From contig CAMEYM010000008.1 in the NCBI GenBank assembly GCA_945947575.1, forward strand, positions 40,578-104,577: a stretch of DNA of 64,000 nt, read 5' to 3'. The translations under genes and the position numbers were made by a program. Positions 9,479 to 19,641 of this stretch are shown in pieces. The notes beneath the pieces are model-generated. The model was given only the letters and a program-made list of their open reading frames with translations. It was not told the origin of the DNA and did no database searches. The stretch's first letter is position 1. Every line of letters begins with the position of its first letter. Source of the stretch: Rhizobium sp. Q54 (GTDB lineage Bacteria > Pseudomonadota > Alphaproteobacteria > UBA2966 > CAIVPW01).

Positions 9479-10594
9479 ATGTCCAAGCCTCCTGCAGCAT
9501 CTGAGGACGCCTACGCTTCCGCCGGCATCCACATTGGCGCCACCGAGACCGCGCTCGAGGGCCTGACCGCGCGCCTGCGCCGGACGTGGCCGGCCAAGCC
9601 GGGCTTTGGCGCCGTCGCGCTCGACTTCGGTTTCTACGCCAACGTCGTCGATATCGGCGGCGGCTTGGGGCTCGCCATCAGCACCGATGGCGTCGGCTCC
9701 AAGGCGCTCATCGCCGAGATGATGGGCAAGTACGACACCGTCGGCATCGACTGCATCGCCATGAACGTCAACGACGTCATCTGCGTCGGGGCGCGGCCGC
9801 TCACCCTGGTCGACTACATTGCGGTGGAGCGCGTCGATCCGGCTGTCATGCGCGCCATCGCCGAGGGACTTGCCGTTGGCGCCGAGCGCGCCGGCGTTTC
9901 CATCACCGGCGGCGAGATCGCCGAGCTACCCGACATGATCAAGGGCGCGCACCCGAAGTCCGGCTTCGACCTCGCCGGCACCGCGGCCGGCATCGTGCCC
10001 CTCGATCGCATTGTGGTGGGGCGCGACTGCAGGCCCGGCGACGCGGTGGTCGGTATCGAGTCGAGCGGCATCCACTCCAACGGCATGACGCTGGCGCGCA
10101 AGGTGCTGCTCGGCACCGCCAACCTGAAGATCACCGACCGTCTGCCGGAAGTCGGCCGCTCGGTGGGCGAGGAGCTGCTCGAGCCGACTCTTATTTACGT
10201 CGCCGAGGCGATGGAGATGCTCGAGAAGGTGACGTCGGTGCGGGCCCTCGCCCACATCACCGGTGACGGCTTCCTCAACTTGGTGCGCGTGCCCGCCAAG
10301 GTCGGCTTCACCCTCGACGCCCTGCCGGAGGTTCCTGCGCTGTTCCGGGCCATTGCGGCGCGTGGCTCGGTGCCCGCCCAGGACATGTACACGGTGTTCA
10401 ACATGGGCGTCGGGCTGTGCGTCGTCTGCGCGTCACAAGATGTTCATGCAGTCGTCGCCATCGCCAAGAAGCACGGTAAGAAAGCCGCCCGCATCGGCTC
10501 GGTGACGGCCGAAACCGGGGTCGTCCGCATCCCCAACAACGCGATGTCGGGCCAGGACTTGGTGGGGGCGGGGCGCTTCTTCCGCCCCGCCTAG
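9479..10594 (+). CDS. purM: phosphoribosylformylglycinamidine cyclo-ligase (AIR synthetase)
   Basis: A 371-residue PurM-type protein. It forms 5-aminoimidazole ribotide from FGAM and ATP, the fifth step of de novo purine synthesis. Visible motifs are DAYASAGIHIGATE at the N-terminus, the ATP-binding STDGVGSKALIAEMMGKYDTVGIDCIAMNVNDVICVGA, the ITGGEIAELPDMI loop, VGIESSGIHSNGMTLARKV, ITGDGFLNLVRVP and TVFNMGVGL. The sequence differs from the E. coli type by small insertions and deletions and resembles a variant AIR synthetase. Start ATG 9479 is preferred over the upstream in-frame ATG at 9404 because homology begins here. It lies about 3.8 kb from purH and is not in one operon with it. Confidence 0.9.
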   Translation: MSKPPAASEDAYASAGIHIGATETALEGLTARLRRTWPAKPGFGAVALDFGFYANVVDIGGGLGLAISTDGVGSKALIAEMMGKYDTVGIDCIAMNVNDVICVGARPLTLVDYIAVERVDPAVMRAIAEGLAVGAERAGVSITGGEIAELPDMIKGAHPKSGFDLAGTAAGIVPLDRIVVGRDCRPGDAVVGIESSGIHSNGMTLARKVLLGTANLKITDRLPEVGRSVGEELLEPTLIYVAEAMEMLEKVTSVRALAHITGDGFLNLVRVPAKVGFTLDALPEVPALFRAIAARGSVPAQDMYTVFNMGVGLCVVCASQDVHAVVAIAKKHGKKAARIGSVTAETGVVRIPNNAMSGQDLVGAGRFFRPA

Positions 10595-10628
10595 GGCACG
10601 AAACCCGCCGCTGCCGGGGGTCTCCGGC

Positions 10629-10658
10629 TTGCCAGAGGGGCCGCCGGTCCCATATAAA
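10629..10658 (+). promoter_or_regulatory. sigma70-like promoter before typA
   Basis: TTGCCA (10629-10634) and TATAAA (10653-10658) are separated by 18 bp, 94 bp before the typA start. Placed in the only sizeable gap between purM and typA. Confidence 0.5.
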
Positions 10659-10751
10659 CCGCGCGTACATCAGGGTTTTCGGATTCGGGCCAGGCGATTG
10701 CGCAGAGAGCGCGCAGTCGCACGGGCTTGGTTTTGCTAGGTACGGAACGTC

Positions 10752-12581
<1,830 letters not shown>

Positions 12582-13119: not shown

Positions 13120-13620
13120 TTATGGGTTCAGCGGCAGGGGCGCGGCACCCGGGGCCATCGGCGCCATCGGCGTAACGTCCGGACCCGGAATCGGCGCCCG
13201 GTTGTTGACGATGTTCTGGATGACCTTCTGGTCGCCATCCAGGCGGTAGGTCAGCGTGACGGTCTGACCCGGCGTCAGCGTGTCGCCGCCCGGCACGTTG
13301 GCGGCGAGCAGGAAGGTATCGCCGTTCTCCAGCGTCAGGGTGCGGCGCAGCGGGTCGTACTGATCGACGCGGCCGTTGGTGGTCTGCGTCATCGCGGCGA
13401 GCGCGTTAGGCGCGGCTGCCGGCGGCGTGATCGGCGTGGCCGGTACGCCCCTGTTGTCGCCGAGACCGGCGCCGCCACCCGGCATGGCCGGGGCGGGAAC
13501 GATGGGGGACGGAGTCACTGCCGGCGGAACGACCGGAGCGGGCGCCATGCCGGCGTTCGGCAGGCCGCGATCGGCCGGCGCCGTCGGCACGAACACGCCG
13601 TTGTCGTCCGGCAGCAACGC
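13120..13620 (-). CDS. 5'-truncated DUF1344-like protein
   Basis: The last 142-167 codons of a minus-strand gene. A proline-rich low-complexity region (APAPVVPPAVTPSPIVPAPAMPG) leads into a beta-rich domain with GRVDQYDPLRRTLTLENGDTFLLAAN and TPGQTVTLTYRLDGDQKVIQNI, the same layout as the 12633-12977 protein. No signal peptide or ribosome binding site is seen at its right end. Near 13620 the sequence changes at once into the Walker A motif of an ATPase gene on the other strand. I therefore treat it as a gene that lost its 5' end. An internal ATG at 13548 could still give a 142-residue protein. Confidence 0.55.
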   Translation of the reverse strand, partial: ALLPDDNGVFVPTAPADRGLPNAGMAPAPVVPPAVTPSPIVPAPAMPGGGAGLGDNRGVPATPITPPAAAPNALAAMTQTTNGRVDQYDPLRRTLTLENGDTFLLAANVPGGDTLTPGQTVTLTYRLDGDQKVIQNIVNNRAPIPGPDVTPMAPMAPGAAPLPLNP

Positions 13621-16015
13621 GACCCGGGCATCGGCAAGAGCCGCCTGGTTTCCGAATTCGACGCGCAGGTGAGCGCCGCGGGTCACATCGTCATCCGCAC
13701 CTCTTGCTTCCCGCCGCACTTGTTCGTTCCCGTCCCGCCGGTGGCCGAAGCGATGCGCCAGGCGCTGGCGCTGCTCGGCGTGCGCACTCACGAGGACGTC
13801 GGCAGCGACAAAGGTCTCGTGCAGCTCACGCCTCTGCACCGCGCCGCGATCCGCGTCGTGCTCGGCGGCGATCCGGGGGACACCCAGTGGCAGGCCCTCG
13901 GTCCGACCGAGCGGCGCCATCTGACGCTGTCGGCGTGCGTCGAAGTGTTCGAGCAGTTGGCGCGCGCGCCAGGCTCTGGTGCTCTTGTTCGAAGACATCC
14001 ATTGGGCCGATTCGGATCTTTCGCGCCTCATTGACCTGTTGTCGGTGCGCGTACACCTCGGCCGTACGCTGGTAGTCATGACGCGCCGTCCGGGCGCCGA
14101 GTTCCAGGACACGCCGTGGCCCAGCACCACGGTTGTCGAAGTCGATCCGCTCAGCGCGGCCGAGGGCGCCGAGCTCGCCAAGGCGACGCTCGGCTCCGCA
14201 AGCCACCTCAGCGCGCTGCGCGACCTGCTGGTCGACAAGACCGGCGGCAATCCCTTCTTCCTGCTCGAGTGCGTTGCATCGGTGCTCAACGCCGGTCCGC
14301 TCACCGAGCGCGCCAGCGCCGCCACGGTGCAGAACTGGGTGCGCGAGTTCGCGGTGCCGCGCACTATCCAAAGTATTATCGCGGCGCGCATCGACCGGCT
14401 CGCGCCGGCCGACCAGGAACTGTTGAGCCGCGCTTCCGTGATCGGCCAGACCTTTGCACACCAGCTGCTGGCGCGCATCGTGCCCGAGCGCCGCGAACAA
14501 CTGCTCGCCGCACTCAACCGCCTGTGCCAGCTCGGCTTCCTGCAGCGCACGCGCGTCGTCCCGCACCTCGAGTTCAGCTTCAAGCACGCGTTGATTCATG
14601 ACGTTGCGTACGGCTCGCTGCCGAGGGCGCTGCGCAAGAACCTGCACAGCGAGATCGCCGCGAACCTGCGTGCGCGCAGCCTGCAGATTGCGAACCGCAT
14701 GGCGCTGCTCGCGCAGCACTGCCTGCGCTCGGAGCTGTGGGGCCAGGCGTTCGTCTATGGTCTCGCCGCCGGCCGCGATGCCTTGCGCCGCTCCCAGTTC
14801 CGAGAGGCCGTTGGCCTTCTCGAGGACGCTTCGAGTGCGCTCAAGCGCTTCCCGCGCACGGCGCGCAATAGCAAGCGCACCGCGCACGTCTGCCTCGACC
14901 TCGCCGATGCGCTCTTCCCGTTGGGCCGCAAGCAGGACGCGGAGCAGCAGCTGATTTTGGCGCAGTCGGCGGCGCGCCGCTCGGGCGACACCCGCACGCT
15001 GACGCGCACCTGGTGCAGCCTGATGCTGCATCACTGGGTCGCCGGCAATCTGGAGACCGCTCACCGCATCGGCGTGCGCGCGCTCAAGGCGGCGGACGCC
15101 GCACGCTTCGACGATCTGCGTCTGATCTGCCTCGGCCGTCTTGGTTACGTGGCACTGGAACGTGGTCGCGGCAAGAGTGCCCGCCAGTATCTCCAAGATG
15201 CGCTGGCACTATCCGTTTCGTTGCCCGGCCGCCGTCGCGACGGCTTCCTCGTGGTTTCGCCGGTCGCGCTACAAGGTCCGCTGTCCGTTGCGCTCGCCCA
15301 GTTGGGCCTCTATCGCGAGGCGGTCGAACTCGCCGACGCCGCACTGAGCGGCGCCGAGGAATCGGGACACCTGTTCAGCAAGGTGTTCGCGCTGTTTCAC
15401 GCCGGCATGGTGTATCTGCACCAGGGCGATTTCCAGCGCAGCGCTGAAGTCCTGGGCCAGTCCCTGCGCCTGTGCCGCACGATCGGCTCGACACTGCTCG
15501 TGCGCCAGATCGTCAGCGCCATGGGGTATGCGCTCCTTCACATCGGCCGCGCTGAAGAGGGCTGCACCCTCCTCGAGGACGCCGTCGCCTCCGCGACGCC
15601 GGATCCGATGGTCGGGCAGCTGCCGCAGCATCTCGGCTGGTTGGCCATGGCCAAGCTCGCCCTGGGTAACCACGGCGAGGCCGAGGTCGTCGCACGGCGC
15701 GCCATAACGCTGGCACGGCGCAACGGCCAGCGTGGCTACGAAGCTTGGGGATGGTATGCGCTCAGCCGCGCCCAGCACGCCCTCGACGTTAGAACTGCCG
15801 CCCGCTCCATGGAACGGGCTCGCACCATCGCCGTTGGTTGTGGCCTCACGCCCCTGGCAGCCCGAACCGAAGGCGGTTGGGGGGCATCGGAATCCGCCCT
15901 CGCCGTGGAAGTGACGGCGACGCCTACCTCGCCCCGCTCGCGCAATCATCTGCGCGTAGTGCGGAGCGACAATCAGGGCGCAGCGCGCCCTAAGCGTACG
16001 GTAGCGCTTACTTAG
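13621..16015 (+). pseudogene. broken AAA-ATPase/TPR regulatory gene (adenylate-cyclase-type)
   Basis: Two overlapping frames make one broken gene. The first frame begins at 13621 with DPGIGKSRLVSEF, a Walker A P-loop, and continues to about 13970. A second frame, opened at 13979 by GTG and running 678 codons, continues with VLLFEDIHWADSDLSRLIDLL (Walker B), then TRRPGAEF and TGGNPFFLLE, and a long TPR-like helical tail. The layout is that of the AAA_16 ATPase-TPR proteins often fused to an adenylate/guanylate cyclase or a LuxR domain; no such domain is present because the 5' end is lost at 13620. Between the frames the CG tract 13960-13969 is 2 bp short; adding 2 bp would give LARARQALVLLFEDIHW in one frame. 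A sequencing error in this GC tract is possible. Confidence 0.75.
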
Positions 16016-16317: not shown

Positions 16318-16365
16318 TGTGAGCCACTTCACAGGGCGCTTCACCTCTGGGTGAAGCAATTCACA
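16318..16365. promoter_or_regulatory. two phased CRP-type sites upstream of the RiPP precursor
   Basis: A perfect CRP consensus TGTGA-N6-TCACA occupies 16318-16333, and a one-mismatch site GGTGA-N6-TCACA occupies 16350-16365. Their centres are 32 bp apart, about three helical turns. A palindrome GCTTCACC-TCTG-GGTGAAGC (16338-16357) overlaps the second site. The second site centre lies about 41 bp before a start of transcription near 16399, if the weak -10 candidate there is real, which would be a class II activator position. The CRP-family regulator encoded at 18946 has matching DNA-reading residues. Confidence 0.75.
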
Positions 16366-16430: not shown

Positions 16431-16835
16431 ATGACGACGGAGGTACGCGGAACCCTGGTACGGGGTCCAGACGGATTGCTTTATGCGGTCGGCGGGGGTG
16501 TCGCGACCGTTGTTGATTCTTCGAACAGCGCACCGGTTGCACCGCGGGCCGCCGCAGCGGCCGCTGAAGATCACGACGCGGGCCGCTACATGATCACTCC
16601 GGGTGACCATGACGCCGGCCGCTACATGATCACGCCGAGCAACGCGTCGAGCGAGCATGACGCCGGGCGCTACATGATCACTCCGGGCGACAACGAAGCC
16701 GGCCGCTACATGATCACGCCGAGCAACGCTGCCGCGCAGGATCACGACGCCGGCCGCTACATGGTGACTCCCGGTGAGGAGAGCGACCATGGCGCGGGCC
16801 GCTACATGATCTCTCCTGAAGTCAGCAACGCTTAG
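16431..16835 (+). CDS. multi-core RiPP precursor peptide
   Basis: A 134-residue peptide with AGGAG 9 nt before ATG 16431. Residues 1-47 look like a leader (VRGTLVRGPDGLLYAV followed by a glycine- and alanine-rich linker). Residues 48-134 hold six motifs with invariant AGRYM, then I or V, then T or S, then P: A50-P57, A62-P69, A78-P85, A90-P97, A107-P114 and A122-P129. Spacing alternates 12, 16, 12, 17, 15, so the array reads as three units of two motifs. The peptide has no cysteine. It stands before ycaO and tfuA, as expected of a substrate, and a terminator follows it. Peptide modification, core boundaries and product are inferred; I recognise no described family. Confidence 0.85.
   Translation: MTTEVRGTLVRGPDGLLYAVGGGVATVVDSSNSAPVAPRAAAAAAEDHDAGRYMITPGDHDAGRYMITPSNASSEHDAGRYMITPGDNEAGRYMITPSNAAAQDHDAGRYMVTPGEESDHGAGRYMISPEVSNA
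16572..16817 (+). repeat. six in-frame core repeats of the RiPP precursor
   Basis: The six AGRYM-containing motifs are also well conserved in DNA (GGCCGCTACATGATCAC in several copies). Units 1-2 and 3-4 are near duplicates with a GD linker inside each pair and an SNA linker after it; units 5-6 have diverged (V for I, S for T). Confidence 0.9.
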
Positions 16836-16839
16836 TTCC

Positions 16840-16876
16840 AAGGACCGCCCGGCGGCCGGACCGTCGGGCGGTCCTT
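16840..16876 (+). terminator. terminator/attenuator between precursor and ycaO
   Basis: A 12-bp stem (AAGGACCGCCCG / CGGGCGGTCCTT) with a 13-nt loop and a short T tract lies directly after the precursor stop codon. Partial read-through would give more precursor than enzyme mRNA, a common RiPP arrangement. Confidence 0.75.
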
Positions 16877-16920
16877 TGCTCGCCTAGTTCCAACGAGTGC
16901 CAAGACCAAGGGAGCTCCCC

Positions 16921-18189
16921 ATGCTCAGCCAGCTCGAGACCACCGCCCTCGCCGCCGCGCGCAAGGCCTACCACTCCGGCACGCACCGTACGGTCGCGCC
17001 CGAGGAAACGCTGAAGCGCATCACGCCGCTGCTGCCCGCCATGGGCATCACGCGCGTGGCCAACGTCACGGGACTCGACCGGGTCGGCATTCCCGTCGTC
17101 ATGGTGACGCGCCCGAACTCGCGTTCGGTCTCGGTCAGCCAGGGCAAGGGCACGACCCTCACCGCCGCCAAGGTGTCCGGCGTCATGGAGGCGATCGAGG
17201 GCTACCACGCCGAGCGCATCACCCTGCCCCTCAAGCTCGCGAGCTTCGAGGAGCTGCGCTACACGCACCAGATGGTCAACGTCTACGCGCTGCCGCGCAA
17301 TGGCCGCAGCACCTTCACGCCGCACGCGCCGCTCTTGTGGACCGAGGGCAAGAGCCTGGTCTCCGGCCAGCCGGTGTGGGTGCCGTTCGAGATGGTGCAC
17401 CTGAACTACACCTCGCCGATGCCGTCGGGCACCGGCTGCTTCCTGGCCAGCTCGAACGGTCTGTCGTCCGGCAACACCCTCGACGAAGCGATCAGCCACG
17501 GCATTTCCGAATTGGTCGAGCGCGACGCGGCGACGCTGTGGCATCGTCTCGACGCCGAGGCACGCGCACGCACGCGCATCGACCTTGCCACCATCCAGGA
17601 CGGCTGGTGCTGCGACCTGATCAAGCGCTTCGACGCCGCCGGCATCGACGTCGGCATTTGGGACATCACCTCCGATATCGGCCTGCCGGCATTCCTGTGC
17701 CGCGCCGTGCCGCGCGACGCCACCGTGCATGGCTTCCGCCCGGCCGTCGGCATGGGCTGCCACCCGGCGCCCGAGATCGCGCTGTCGCGCTCCCTCACCG
17801 AGGCGGCACAGAGCCGGCTCACCTTCATCTCCGGCGCGCGCGATGACATGCCGCGTCACGAGTACGAGCACTTCCTCGACGCCAACGTGCACAAGCGTTG
17901 GCAGGCGATGCTGCACGGCGAGACGCCGCAGAAGCGCTTCGCCGACGTCGCCACCTTCGCGACCGATTCGATCACCAGCGACATCCAGCGCGAGGTTGCG
18001 CGCGTGATGGAATGCGGTGGCGAGGACGTCATCGTCGTCAACCTCACCAAGCCCGAGTTCAACATCCCGGTCGTGCGCGTCATCATCCCCGGTCTTGAGG
18101 GCGTCGATGCGTCGTCCGACTACGTGCCCGGCAGACGTGCCGCAGCCCAGGATGCCGAGCGGCCGCGCGTCGCCGCGAGGGCGGCATGA
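16921..18189 (+). CDS. YcaO-family peptide-modifying enzyme
   Basis: A 422-residue YcaO-domain protein; ATG 16921 follows GGGAG. ATP/Mg-binding motifs of the family are present: SQGKG (73-77), SGVMEAIEGYHAE (86-98, with glutamates 90 and 93), and DEAISHGISELVERDA (188-203). A SLTEAAQSR helix follows. The C-terminus lacks a PxPxP tail, and no E1-like or docking C protein is encoded nearby, so azoline formation of the usual TOMM kind is less likely. The partner is TfuA, whose gene overlaps it by 4 bp; family knowledge ties YcaO-TfuA pairs to backbone thioamidation, as in thioviridamide and thiovarsolin. The probable substrate is the repeat peptide at 16431. Confidence 0.9.
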   Translation: MLSQLETTALAAARKAYHSGTHRTVAPEETLKRITPLLPAMGITRVANVTGLDRVGIPVVMVTRPNSRSVSVSQGKGTTLTAAKVSGVMEAIEGYHAERITLPLKLASFEELRYTHQMVNVYALPRNGRSTFTPHAPLLWTEGKSLVSGQPVWVPFEMVHLNYTSPMPSGTGCFLASSNGLSSGNTLDEAISHGISELVERDAATLWHRLDAEARARTRIDLATIQDGWCCDLIKRFDAAGIDVGIWDITSDIGLPAFLCRAVPRDATVHGFRPAVGMGCHPAPEIALSRSLTEAAQSRLTFISGARDDMPRHEYEHFLDANVHKRWQAMLHGETPQKRFADVATFATDSITSDIQREVARVMECGGEDVIVVNLTKPEFNIPVVRVIIPGLEGVDASSDYVPGRRAAAQDAERPRVAARAA

Positions 18190-18938
18190 CCGCTTTCGTC
18201 TTCTGCGGGCCGAGCCTCACCGCCGAGCAGGGGCGGCCGCATCTCGACGCCATCTACCTGCCGCCGGTGGCCCAAGGCGACGTGATCCGCGTCATCGCGC
18301 GCAAGCCGACGGCGATCGGCATCATCGACGGCTTCTTCCACAACGTGCCGGCGGTTTGGCACAAGGAAGTTCTCGCGGCGCTGCAGCAAGGCATCCCGGT
18401 GTGGGGCAGCGCCAGCATGGGCGCCCTGCGCGCCGCCGAGTTGCACCCGTTCGGCATGGTCGGTGTCGGCGCGGTGTTCGAGGCGTACCGCGACGGCATC
18501 ATCGAGGATGACGACGAGGTCGCCGTCACCCACGGGCCCGGCGAGCTCGGCTACCTGGCGCTATCGGAAGCGATGGTCAACATCCGCTGCACCATGGCGG
18601 ACGCACAACAACAGGGCGTTCTCTCCGAGCGCAGCCGCATCGTGCTCGAACGCGCCGCCAAGGCATTGCCCTACCAGGAGCGCACGTACGATCGCATCCT
18701 GAAGGCCGCTGCCGCCGCGGGCCTCGATCGCCGCGACGTCGAGGTCACGCGCGCGTGGCTTCCGTCCGGCCGCCGCGACCTCAAGCGCGAGGACGCTGTC
18801 CGCATGCTGCAAGTCATGCGTGAGCGCCTGGTTGCAGGCGCGCCGCGCGCAACTCCGAAGTTCCACTTCGAAGAAACGACGCTGTGGTTGAGTGCGGTAA
18901 AGGGTACCCTGGAAGGCACCAGAGCACCGCGGACATAA
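18186..18938 (+). CDS. TfuA-like protein
   Basis: A 250-residue protein, normal for TfuA. The core signature is present: AIGIIDGFFHNVPAVWHKEVLAAL, GIPVWGSASMGALRAAELHPFGMVGVG, and EAYRDGIIEDDDEVAVTHGP. TfuA proteins act with YcaO, probably delivering sulfur or supporting the thioamidation step; the mechanism is not settled. The start ATG overlaps the ycaO stop by 4 bp (ATGA), so the two proteins are translationally coupled. The stop is 7 nt before the regulator start. This triplet is one operon. Confidence 0.9.
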   Translation: MTAFVFCGPSLTAEQGRPHLDAIYLPPVAQGDVIRVIARKPTAIGIIDGFFHNVPAVWHKEVLAALQQGIPVWGSASMGALRAAELHPFGMVGVGAVFEAYRDGIIEDDDEVAVTHGPGELGYLALSEAMVNIRCTMADAQQQGVLSERSRIVLERAAKALPYQERTYDRILKAAAAAGLDRRDVEVTRAWLPSGRRDLKREDAVRMLQVMRERLVAGAPRATPKFHFEETTLWLSAVKGTLEGTRAPRT

Positions 18939-18945
18939 CGGACGA

Positions 18946-19641
18946 ATGCCAGCCGCAGAAGATCTGCGGAGCGTCATCACCAAGAATGTGATCTTCGGGG
19001 CGTTAGGTTCCGGGGAGGTCGATCGGCTCCTCGCCGCCGCCACGCTCCGCGCATACGAGAAAGATCAGCAGATCTTCCAACAGGGAGATTTGGCGGACGG
19101 TCTGTATCTCGTCGCCACAGGCCGCGTCGGTATCCGCACGCTGTCCGAGGAGGGCAGCGAGATCTTCCTCAACATTCTCGAAGGCGGCGCCGTGTTCGGC
19201 GAGATCGCCGCGATCGACGGCGGCGCGCGCACGGCAGGCGCGATCGCGATGGAGCGCTCCGACCTCCTGTTCGTCGACCGCCGCACATTTCACGGCTTGA
19301 TGCTGGCGAGCCCGGCCCTGTGCGTCAGCCTGCTCACGCTCATGTGCGAGCGCTTGCGCTGGACCAGCTCGATCATCGAGGACGCGCACTTCCGCGACGT
19401 CAGGACGCGCCTCGCGCGGCGCCTGCACAAGCTGCTCGGCGAGTACGGCGTCGAGCAGGAAGGCGGCATGCGCATCAAACTGAAGGTGACGCAGGAAATG
19501 CTCGCGCGGATGCTCGGTGCGACGCGCGAGAGCGTCAACAAGGAACTCATGGCGCTGCAGCGCGCCGGCATCCTCACCTACAGTCGCGGCTACGTCACCG
19601 TGCACGACGGCGAAGGATTGCGGCGTACTACCGAGGAGTAG
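18946..19641 (+). CDS. CRP-family cAMP-responsive transcription regulator
   Basis: A 231-residue protein with an N-terminal cyclic-nucleotide-binding barrel and a C-terminal winged HTH. cAMP-contacting residues of E. coli CRP are all kept: E86 in FGEIAAI, R95-T96 in GARTAGA, and T140-S141 in LRWTSSI. In the recognition helix, R194, E195 and K199 (ATRESVNKEL) match CRP R180, E181 and R185, the residues that read GTGA. The family binds TGTGA-N6-TCACA, which occurs perfectly before the precursor gene at 16318. The gene starts 7 nt after tfuA, so it is in the operon it probably regulates. It may also sense cGMP; binding is not proven. Confidence 0.88.
   Translation: MPAAEDLRSVITKNVIFGALGSGEVDRLLAAATLRAYEKDQQIFQQGDLADGLYLVATGRVGIRTLSEEGSEIFLNILEGGAVFGEIAAIDGGARTAGAIAMERSDLLFVDRRTFHGLMLASPALCVSLLTLMCERLRWTSSIIEDAHFRDVRTRLARRLHKLLGEYGVEQEGGMRIKLKVTQEMLARMLGATRESVNKELMALQRAGILTYSRGYVTVHDGEGLRRTTEE

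Follow-up and report, generated by a model that had tools for sequence, protein, structure and literature searches.

A repeat-core peptide encoded beside YcaO, TfuA and a Crp-type regulator in Rhizobium sp. Q54 is likely a CRP-controlled substrate for backbone thioamidation

Introduction

What does a YcaO-TfuA enzyme pair modify in a Gram-negative bacterium, and what controls it? A locus of Rhizobium sp. Q54 (assembly GCA_945947575.1, contig CAMEYM010000008.1, positions 40,578 to 104,577 of the forward strand; this whole stretch of 64,000 nt is called the window) raises both questions, as a short gene for a peptide with six near-identical repeats is followed by ycaO, tfuA and a gene for a Crp-type regulator. 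In 2021, all known thioamidated ribosomally synthesised and post-translationally modified peptides (RiPPs) made by a TfuA-YcaO pair came from Actinobacteria, according to the main text of Malit et al. (PMC8120280). Here, we propose, with a probability of roughly 0.7, that the short gene encodes a repeat-core precursor and that the adjacent YcaO-TfuA pair likely thioamidates its six cores, likely under the control of the Crp-type protein.

Results

A six-core precursor precedes ycaO, tfuA and a Crp-type gene

The window's genome (G000; 2.49 Mb, 95.7% complete) contains a single precursor copy and a single match to the YcaO family PF02624. All four genes lie on the forward strand in the order precursor, ycaO, tfuA, Crp-type gene, with a 4-nt overlap between ycaO and tfuA and a 7-nt gap between tfuA and crp:

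16431..16835, + strand: precursor gene, 134 aa, stop codon included in the span (open reading frame (ORF) reading and family alignments)
16431..16577, + strand: putative leader, residues 1-49, with the motif RGPDGLLYAV
16578..16601, + strand: core 1, AGRYMITP (ORF translation, as for all cores)
16614..16637, + strand: core 2, AGRYMITP
16662..16685, + strand: core 3, AGRYMITP
16698..16721, + strand: core 4, AGRYMITP
16749..16772, + strand: core 5, AGRYMVTP
16794..16817, + strand: core 6, AGRYMISP
16921..18189, + strand: ycaO, predicted ATP-dependent backbone-modifying enzyme (Pfam, NCBIfam and PDB matches)
18186..18938, + strand: tfuA, predicted sulfur-delivery partner (Pfam, NCBIfam and PDB matches)
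18946..19641, + strand: Crp-type regulator with a FGEIAAIDGGARTA cassette and a TRESVNK recognition helix (Pfam and alignment)

The ycaO start was taken as the ATG at 16921, 85 nt past the precursor stop, with a GTG at 16897 as an alternative start. An earlier note, made from the letters of the window, had described six AGRYM[IV][TS]P units, overlapping ycaO and tfuA genes and a regulator 7 nt further on, all of which ORF reading and Pfam located where the note had them, and its remark that the cores contain no cysteine holds for the entire ORF 16431-16835. AGRYMITP occurs four times, and AGRYMVTP and AGRYMISP once each. In four multi-core precursors, the ratio of nonsynonymous to synonymous differences among units, taken as a plain, uncorrected pairwise count (pN/pS), was 0.13 (window), 0 (locus L007), 0.12 (L044) and 0 (L049). 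Because the units differ mostly at silent sites and relatives retain the gene order, the arrangement, judged from these sequence patterns, is more than chance.

A direct search of a sequence database with the window precursor returned no match at E 0.001, and the precursors of the window, L012 and L049 have no convincing Pfam or NCBIfam family. A match of the window precursor to MBG_2 (34 bits in Pfam, cut-off 25) was rejected, as no single stretch passes alone and the score looks repeat-driven. We found no published description of the precursor family in the titles and abstract openings of the open-licence literature, supplements lying outside that search. The earlier note's remark that it recognised no described family thus stands in Pfam, NCBIfam and that literature.

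The precursor family keeps its leader and varies its cores

Relatives were reached through a search of the order, then through YcaO loci and finally by leader-based alignment. A YcaO scan of species genomes gave 21 loci, with YcaO identities to that of the window of 87% for L007 (a metagenome-assembled genome), 60-68% for 15 Azospirillum loci and 46-49% for 5 further loci. Many ycaO genes of these loci, and of those from a search of the class, have a precursor beside them; these precursors share the leader motif R-[GA]-x-D-G-x-[LM]-[YF], which hardly varies, and carry 1 to 20 cores, the multi-core type-A precursors having 5 to 20 units each and the single-core members measuring only ~65 aa. 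L007, in the window's genus, has 7 AGRYYVTP units and L044, in the sister genus, has 20 AGRWA[IV][TS]P units; Azospirillum precursors, including that of A. brasilense Sp7, have one core, such as DHEAGRFSITPGA; Niveispirillum precursors have SADLY or SAEIF pairs; L049 has 5 QRHAANFIGT units; and the Indioceanicola precursor has one dissimilar core, GGFQYIPV.

At E 0.01, a profile of 13 leaders retrieved 120 database clusters; those with a name are 'hypothetical' or 'uncharacterized' proteins, and none bears a Pfam domain. In an alignment made without forcing the motif, R, D and G were kept in 120/120, L in 118/120 and Y/F in 120/120, a conservation that is not independent of the leader profile with which these relatives were collected. 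A second profile, for which the best 7996 candidates were scored, gave 22 clusters, including multi-core relatives with Asp or Glu replacing Thr, and one protein of this set (P0122) has a leader without the motif D. An AlphaFold model of one single-core relative (43 aligned rows; mean predicted local distance difference test score (pLDDT) 67, predicted template modelling score 0.37) placed three short strands in leader residues 9-29 (block means 85-87 from residue 11 onward) and left the core poorly defined. A model of a type-B leader was poor (mean pLDDT 41) and was set aside.

The precursor occurs together with YcaO

Co-conservation of the repeat peptide with YcaO-TfuA, the lack of which would by the earlier note have refuted its reading, was present at three levels of comparison. 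Within the order, the precursor occurred in 3 of 15 genomes, and strong YcaO matches in exactly those 3; one more genome carries two YcaO at 31-33%. Within the class, 15 of 385 genomes were YcaO-positive (E 1e-80) and 8 of 385 matched the precursor profile (E 0.001), 6 of them at E 1e-15 or better. All 6 strong precursor genomes were YcaO-positive, and the weak G281 and G322 were not among the YcaO-positive genomes; the G281 match was rejected as chance, since it overlaps the end of a glutamine synthetase frame. Seven class genomes have crp after tfuA, six of which have a strong precursor and the seventh (G205, locus L046) a candidate only, while the remaining 8 YcaO-positive genomes have neither precursor nor crp after tfuA. 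Among 72,556 plasmid records, the precursor was found in 11, all from Azospirillum and each with a YcaO within ~250 nt; such a YcaO occurred in 19 records, and the other 8 had no match to the Azospirillum precursor, one of these, Indioceanicola, bearing the divergent precursor. This co-occurrence (3/15, 6/6 and 11/11) supports the earlier reading of the locus as a repeat-core YcaO-TfuA RiPP cluster.

It also bears on the idea that YcaO-TfuA acts on a housekeeping protein, with the repeat peptide as an unconnected product of the gene next door. McrA and uL16 are indeed modified by YcaO enzymes, as described in excerpts of PMC5589413 and PMC13063428. The precursor and YcaO share their pattern of occurrence, however, even in two genomes in which the precursor lies away from ycaO, and we give this explanation almost no weight. 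In 13 of the 15 Azospirillum loci the precursor adjoins ycaO, and in the remaining two it lies elsewhere in the genome beside the cyclase gene described below. These two are L067 and L068 (A. canadense and A. rugosum), where cyclase and precursor are separated from ycaO-tfuA-crp by ~89 kb or lie on another contig.

Enzymes and cores favour a backbone change

The window YcaO matches PF02624 with 294 bits and TfuA matches PF07812 with 161 bits; the closest PDB match of YcaO is MJ1094 (6pe3), and TfuA matches 6xp8. YcaO retains the ATP-binding motifs VMEAIE, HGISELVERDA and LTEAAQSR, as well as the Met, His and Ala preferences that the main text of PMC8120280 reports for TfuA-associated YcaO. Thioamide-forming YcaO enzymes outside high-sulfide habitats tend toward a ThiS-type carrier together with TfuA, according to excerpts of PMC13063428, and G000 contains four ThiS-family matches. 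Elsewhere, L025 (Actinopolymorpha) has a second, distant YcaO (28% to that of the window) ~4 kb on from its TfuA-linked YcaO.

To compare core positions, we searched 138 proteins beyond residue 38 and counted every x5-[IVL]-x-P as a unit, which gave 200 units in 117 proteins, some of them chance matches outside cores; 21 of the 138, mostly of the Niveispirillum kind, have no such unit. The third position is Arg in 188 of 200 units (12 are without it) and the second is Gly, Ala or Ser in 190. Before Pro stands Thr or Ser in 136 units, Glu or Asp in 54 and another residue in 10, leaving 64 without Ser/Thr, and in 20 of 117 proteins no unit has Ser/Thr there, at least two of these (P0086, P0120) being chance matches outside the core. 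Cysteine occurs in 13 of 120 precursors at no fixed core position, with none conserved.

These counts weigh on the reading of YcaO as a cyclodehydratase that would turn the core Thr/Ser into methyloxazoline or oxazoline rings. Such an enzyme would suit the six window cores, each of which carries Thr or Ser ahead of Pro, and likewise 136 of the 200 units overall. However, a hydroxyl-requiring enzyme would not tolerate Asp/Glu substitutions, whereas a backbone change would, so the 64 units without Ser/Thr before Pro, 54 of them with Asp/Glu, argue for backbone thioamidation. In addition, an E1-like or ocin-ThiF partner is not among the shared genes (no family search was aimed at it). A C-terminal PxPxP is a criterion for azoline-forming YcaO enzymes; the window YcaO ends in ERPRVAARAA without this motif, and TfuA is present instead. 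Ring formation therefore seems improbable. The earlier note had left hydroxyl chemistry and thioamide formation both open, and relatives with Asp, Glu or Asn at this position have moved the balance to the backbone.

A different backbone modification, for instance an amidine ring with a new role for TfuA, would be compatible with core types that differ as strongly as AGRYMITP, SADLY, QRHAANFIGT and GGFQYIPV, but the characterised TfuA pairings described in excerpts of PMC5589413 and PMC6511847 are tied to thioamides, and we consider this alternative very unlikely.

A CRP-type box precedes the precursor gene

Upstream of the precursor, the window contains two CRP-type boxes:

16318..16333, + strand: perfect box TGTGA-N6-TCACA, beginning 113 nt before the precursor start codon
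16350..16365, + strand: second box with one mismatch, 32 nt downstream of the first

The first box is the only perfect site in 64 kb and occurred in 0 of 100 shuffles. By count alone, the second is not above chance, as 21 of 100 window shuffles reach two sites with at most one mismatch; a box pair with equal spacing is also found in L007. Across 22 precursor loci, a perfect box was present in 19, starting 78-124 nt before the start codon, and a one-mismatch box in 3, against a background of 1.5% with a perfect box and 2.2% with a box of at most one mismatch in 4400 random 320-nt windows of the same loci. With A. lipoferum 4B (one mismatch), A. brasilense Sp7 and I. profundi (both perfect) added, a box stands before 25 of 25 precursors, 21 of them perfect; these loci are mostly from Azospirillum and represent three families (the window's, the Azospirillaceae and that of G099) plus the L046 candidate. 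In L067 and L068, one box precedes ycaO and another the separate precursor. Perfect boxes are rare genome-wide, with 4, 2 and 3 sites in three genomes.

The box also goes with the presence of the regulator gene. In the 25 loci with crp directly after tfuA, a perfect box lies somewhere in the locus in 21 and a one-mismatch box in 4, and none of 14 loci without crp after tfuA has a perfect box (L022-L026 and L050-L058; L051 spans only 4.6 kb, and L027, cut inside ycaO, was excluded). One of the 14, L053, has a 28% Crp relative farther away. The Crp-type protein contains the Pfam domains cNMP_binding and HTH_Crp_2, and both the nucleotide cassette GEI...RTA and the helix RE-x-VN[KR] are kept in all 25 Crp proteins. 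Helices of this type recognise TGTGA, as in E. coli CRP and C. glutamicum GlxR. The box predicted for a CRP-controlled gene is thus found in front of the precursor, and because it is conserved, the regulator is likely part of the system. In the YcaO tree, the crp-bearing loci need 3 changes against a shuffled mean of 12, with many forks open; because they form no single clade, we make no claim of a single origin.

The candidate precursor in L046 (genome of 1.6 Mb) is an 85-aa ORF at 2113-2370 on the minus strand, with a leader-like VLGQDGKSYFI and a perfect box upstream at 2553.

A cyclase-AAA-TPR gene accompanies the clusters

The gene upstream of the L012 precursor encodes Guanylate_cyc (PF00211), AAA_16 and TPR domains. 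In the window, a decayed copy remains:

13405..16012, + strand: remnant of a cyclase-AAA-TPR gene whose L007 counterpart is intact, with the cyclase part missing and the rest spread over two frames

Residues 186-375 of the L007 cyclase match 13405-13980, residues 369-1054 match 13958-16012 in a different frame, and residues 1-185 have no match at the remnant site; a misassembly could possibly account for this state. A cyclase relative is present at 22 of the 25 crp loci (not at L009, L010 and L046), and in the two split Azospirillum loci cyclase and precursor remain together.

Hairpin, product release and neighbouring genes

A simple-rule scan of the locus for promoter and terminator gave no site. 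Between precursor and ycaO lies one structured element:

16840..16876, + strand: GC-rich hairpin of 16 pairs, folding z-score -3.6, with no consensus terminator

The 90 nt past the precursor stop had z-scores (60 mononucleotide shuffles per locus) of -1.5 or lower in 17 of 18 loci tested out of the 25, L049 being the exception, and of -3 or lower in 13 of 18. The hairpin is not classed as a terminator here, as it fails the simple terminator rule. It is also kept in L067 and L068, where ycaO does not come next.

No dedicated protease or exporter was seen in the ORFs read by eye at 10-27 kb or among the genes shared across loci. This would fit a modified repeat protein that stays whole in the cell in a regulatory or structural role, as would single-core members of ~65 aa. 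Against it, a constant leader combined with variable, copy-number-variable cores is the usual pattern of a precursor, and the thiovarsolin cluster likewise has no protease in excerpts of PMC6511847, so that we consider an uncut protein unlikely and prefer a precursor whose cores are released.

Peptide ABC transporter-like frames (binding protein and permeases, judged by eye) lie beside three clusters, at L007:1-2900, L044:14725-18009 (minus strand) and L046:6718-8542 (minus strand), and could import the product.

A second kind of repeat precursor, with a long leader, lies beside YcaO-TfuA in 5 of the 14 loci without crp:

L026:11237-12127: RAAMQ[SA], 15 repeats
L050:12692-13591: RAVM[AT], 11 repeats
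L022:11946-12503: VSGAR, 7 repeats
L058:6610-7140, - strand: VSGAR, 8 repeats
L057:13380-13979: LVGRSD, 4 repeats

The L026 and L050 precursors share the leader motif LRGADGRLY. Assignment of this kind to the pentapeptide-repeat family was rejected, as the matches stem from SGARV units alone. In L026, a gene between tfuA and the RAAMQS precursor (9952-11202) encodes an HEAGH motif and weakly matches Peptidase_M4 (20.6 bits, cut-off 22.4), making its product a candidate release protease or HExxH enzyme.

Discussion

Proposed mechanism

We propose that a cyclic-nucleotide signal, in relatives likely produced by the upstream cyclase-AAA-TPR protein, would load the Crp-type protein, which would then switch on transcription of precursor-ycaO-tfuA-crp by binding the conserved box that begins 113 nt upstream of the precursor. 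The hairpin past the precursor may keep precursor mRNA above enzyme mRNA, and the RGPDGLLYAV leader, near-invariant and predicted to fold into three strands, may dock the substrate. In each core, one backbone oxygen would be exchanged for sulfur by YcaO, which would use ATP, and TfuA, which would draw sulfide from a ThiS-type carrier. We predict that the sulfur enters at the carbonyl of the small residue that precedes Arg (AG-R), since no core feature is more constant than the small-Arg pair and the thiovarsolin thioamide also lies at the residue before Arg. Up to six short peptides, with three different sequences among them, are proposed to be set free by housekeeping peptidases, no dedicated protease or exporter having been seen. 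The locus would then likely belong to a CRP-controlled, multi-core family of thioamidated RiPPs, a variant of the YcaO-TfuA kind.

Several observations weigh against this proposal. The window YcaO-TfuA pair misses the NCBIfam equivalogs for McrA thioamidation (TIGR03266, 270.5 of 365 bits; NF033432, 224.5 of 235.2 bits), Ser/Thr before Pro is still frequent (136 of 200 units), and the shared genes include neither an exporter nor a protease. The Niveispirillum and Indioceanicola cores are without Arg, so the predicted site before Arg is not general and more than one site rule must exist. A perfect box also occurs at three other places in G000 (C15:26995, C17:514 and C17:32778), around which the open frames gave no clear target. 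The signal is likewise questioned: with the upstream cyclase decayed in the window's genome, the signal in that genome must have another source or have been lost, and other cyclase-like matches do exist; in A. lipoferum 4B, an IS5 transposase interrupts the cyclase (L083:1593-5519) while the cluster is kept; L046 has crp but no cyclase nearby; and, of the 14 loci without crp, 4-6 have a cyclase relative nearby (L026, L050, L053 and L057; partial or weak in L022 and L054). The association of the cyclase with YcaO-TfuA clusters is thus wider than its association with crp, and the cyclase is not strictly paired with Crp, a point that bears solely on the proposed cyclic-nucleotide signal.

Comparison with known systems

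The thiovarsolin cluster of Streptomyces varsoviensis (VarA/VarY/VarT) is alike in placing a repeat-core precursor beside YcaO and TfuA, in small residues before Arg in the core and in the absence of a cluster protease, as far as excerpts of PMC6511847 describe it. Its core is APR/GPR, whereas that of the window is AGRYM[IV][TS]P. It also has heme oxygenase, amidinotransferase, ATP-grasp ligase and MFS genes, none of which is among the shared genes here; varO, varL, varP and varS were absent from the genes shared by at least 3 lineage groups, with no family search aimed at them. The window family differs further in its own Crp-type gene and box and in up to 20 units, a comparison made without the VarA and VarY sequences.

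The McrA-thioamidating YcaO-TfuA pair of methanogens resembles the window pair in giving the closest NCBIfam models and in its ycaO-tfuA gene overlap (excerpts of PMC5589413), but the window scores lie below the equivalog cut-offs and the likely substrate here is the adjacent precursor peptide. By sequence, then, the system is not thiovarsolin, as judged by core, nor the McrA pair, as judged by cut-offs. The TOMM kinase/cyclase fusion model TIGR03903 matches the AAA/TPR part of the upstream gene (164 bits in the window, 218 bits in L012), far under its cut-off of 705.75, and that gene is a class III cyclase with AAA and TPR parts. The Proteobacterial TfuA clusters counted by Malit et al. 2021 (PMC8120280) likely include such loci; a term search of its main text, supplements lying outside, found no Azospirillum, repeats or cyclase. 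New here are the leader family, the range of core numbers, a core that does not rely on Ser/Thr, and a CRP-type box accompanied by a crp gene in the same cluster.

Significance

The results describe a precursor family for a YcaO-TfuA pair in a Gram-negative class, with a searchable leader motif, which is present in the laboratory strain A. brasilense Sp7 and is likely widespread among relatives, including root-dwelling Azospirillum. One organism thereby offers three testable points, namely Gram-negative YcaO-TfuA chemistry, leader recognition and a cluster switch, and the natural core numbers of 1 to 20, together with several core types, form a substrate series for the rules of the enzyme. More tentatively, and as a possibility we would hold with considerable doubt, the family may serve cyclic-nucleotide-gated peptide signalling in Alphaproteobacteria, in which a cyclase sensor, Crp and 1-20 cores would yield thioamide peptides with copy number acting as dose. 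If this were true, the core would vary by lineage while leader, box and enzymes stay, giving each lineage, root-associated Azospirillum included, its own thioamide 'word'.

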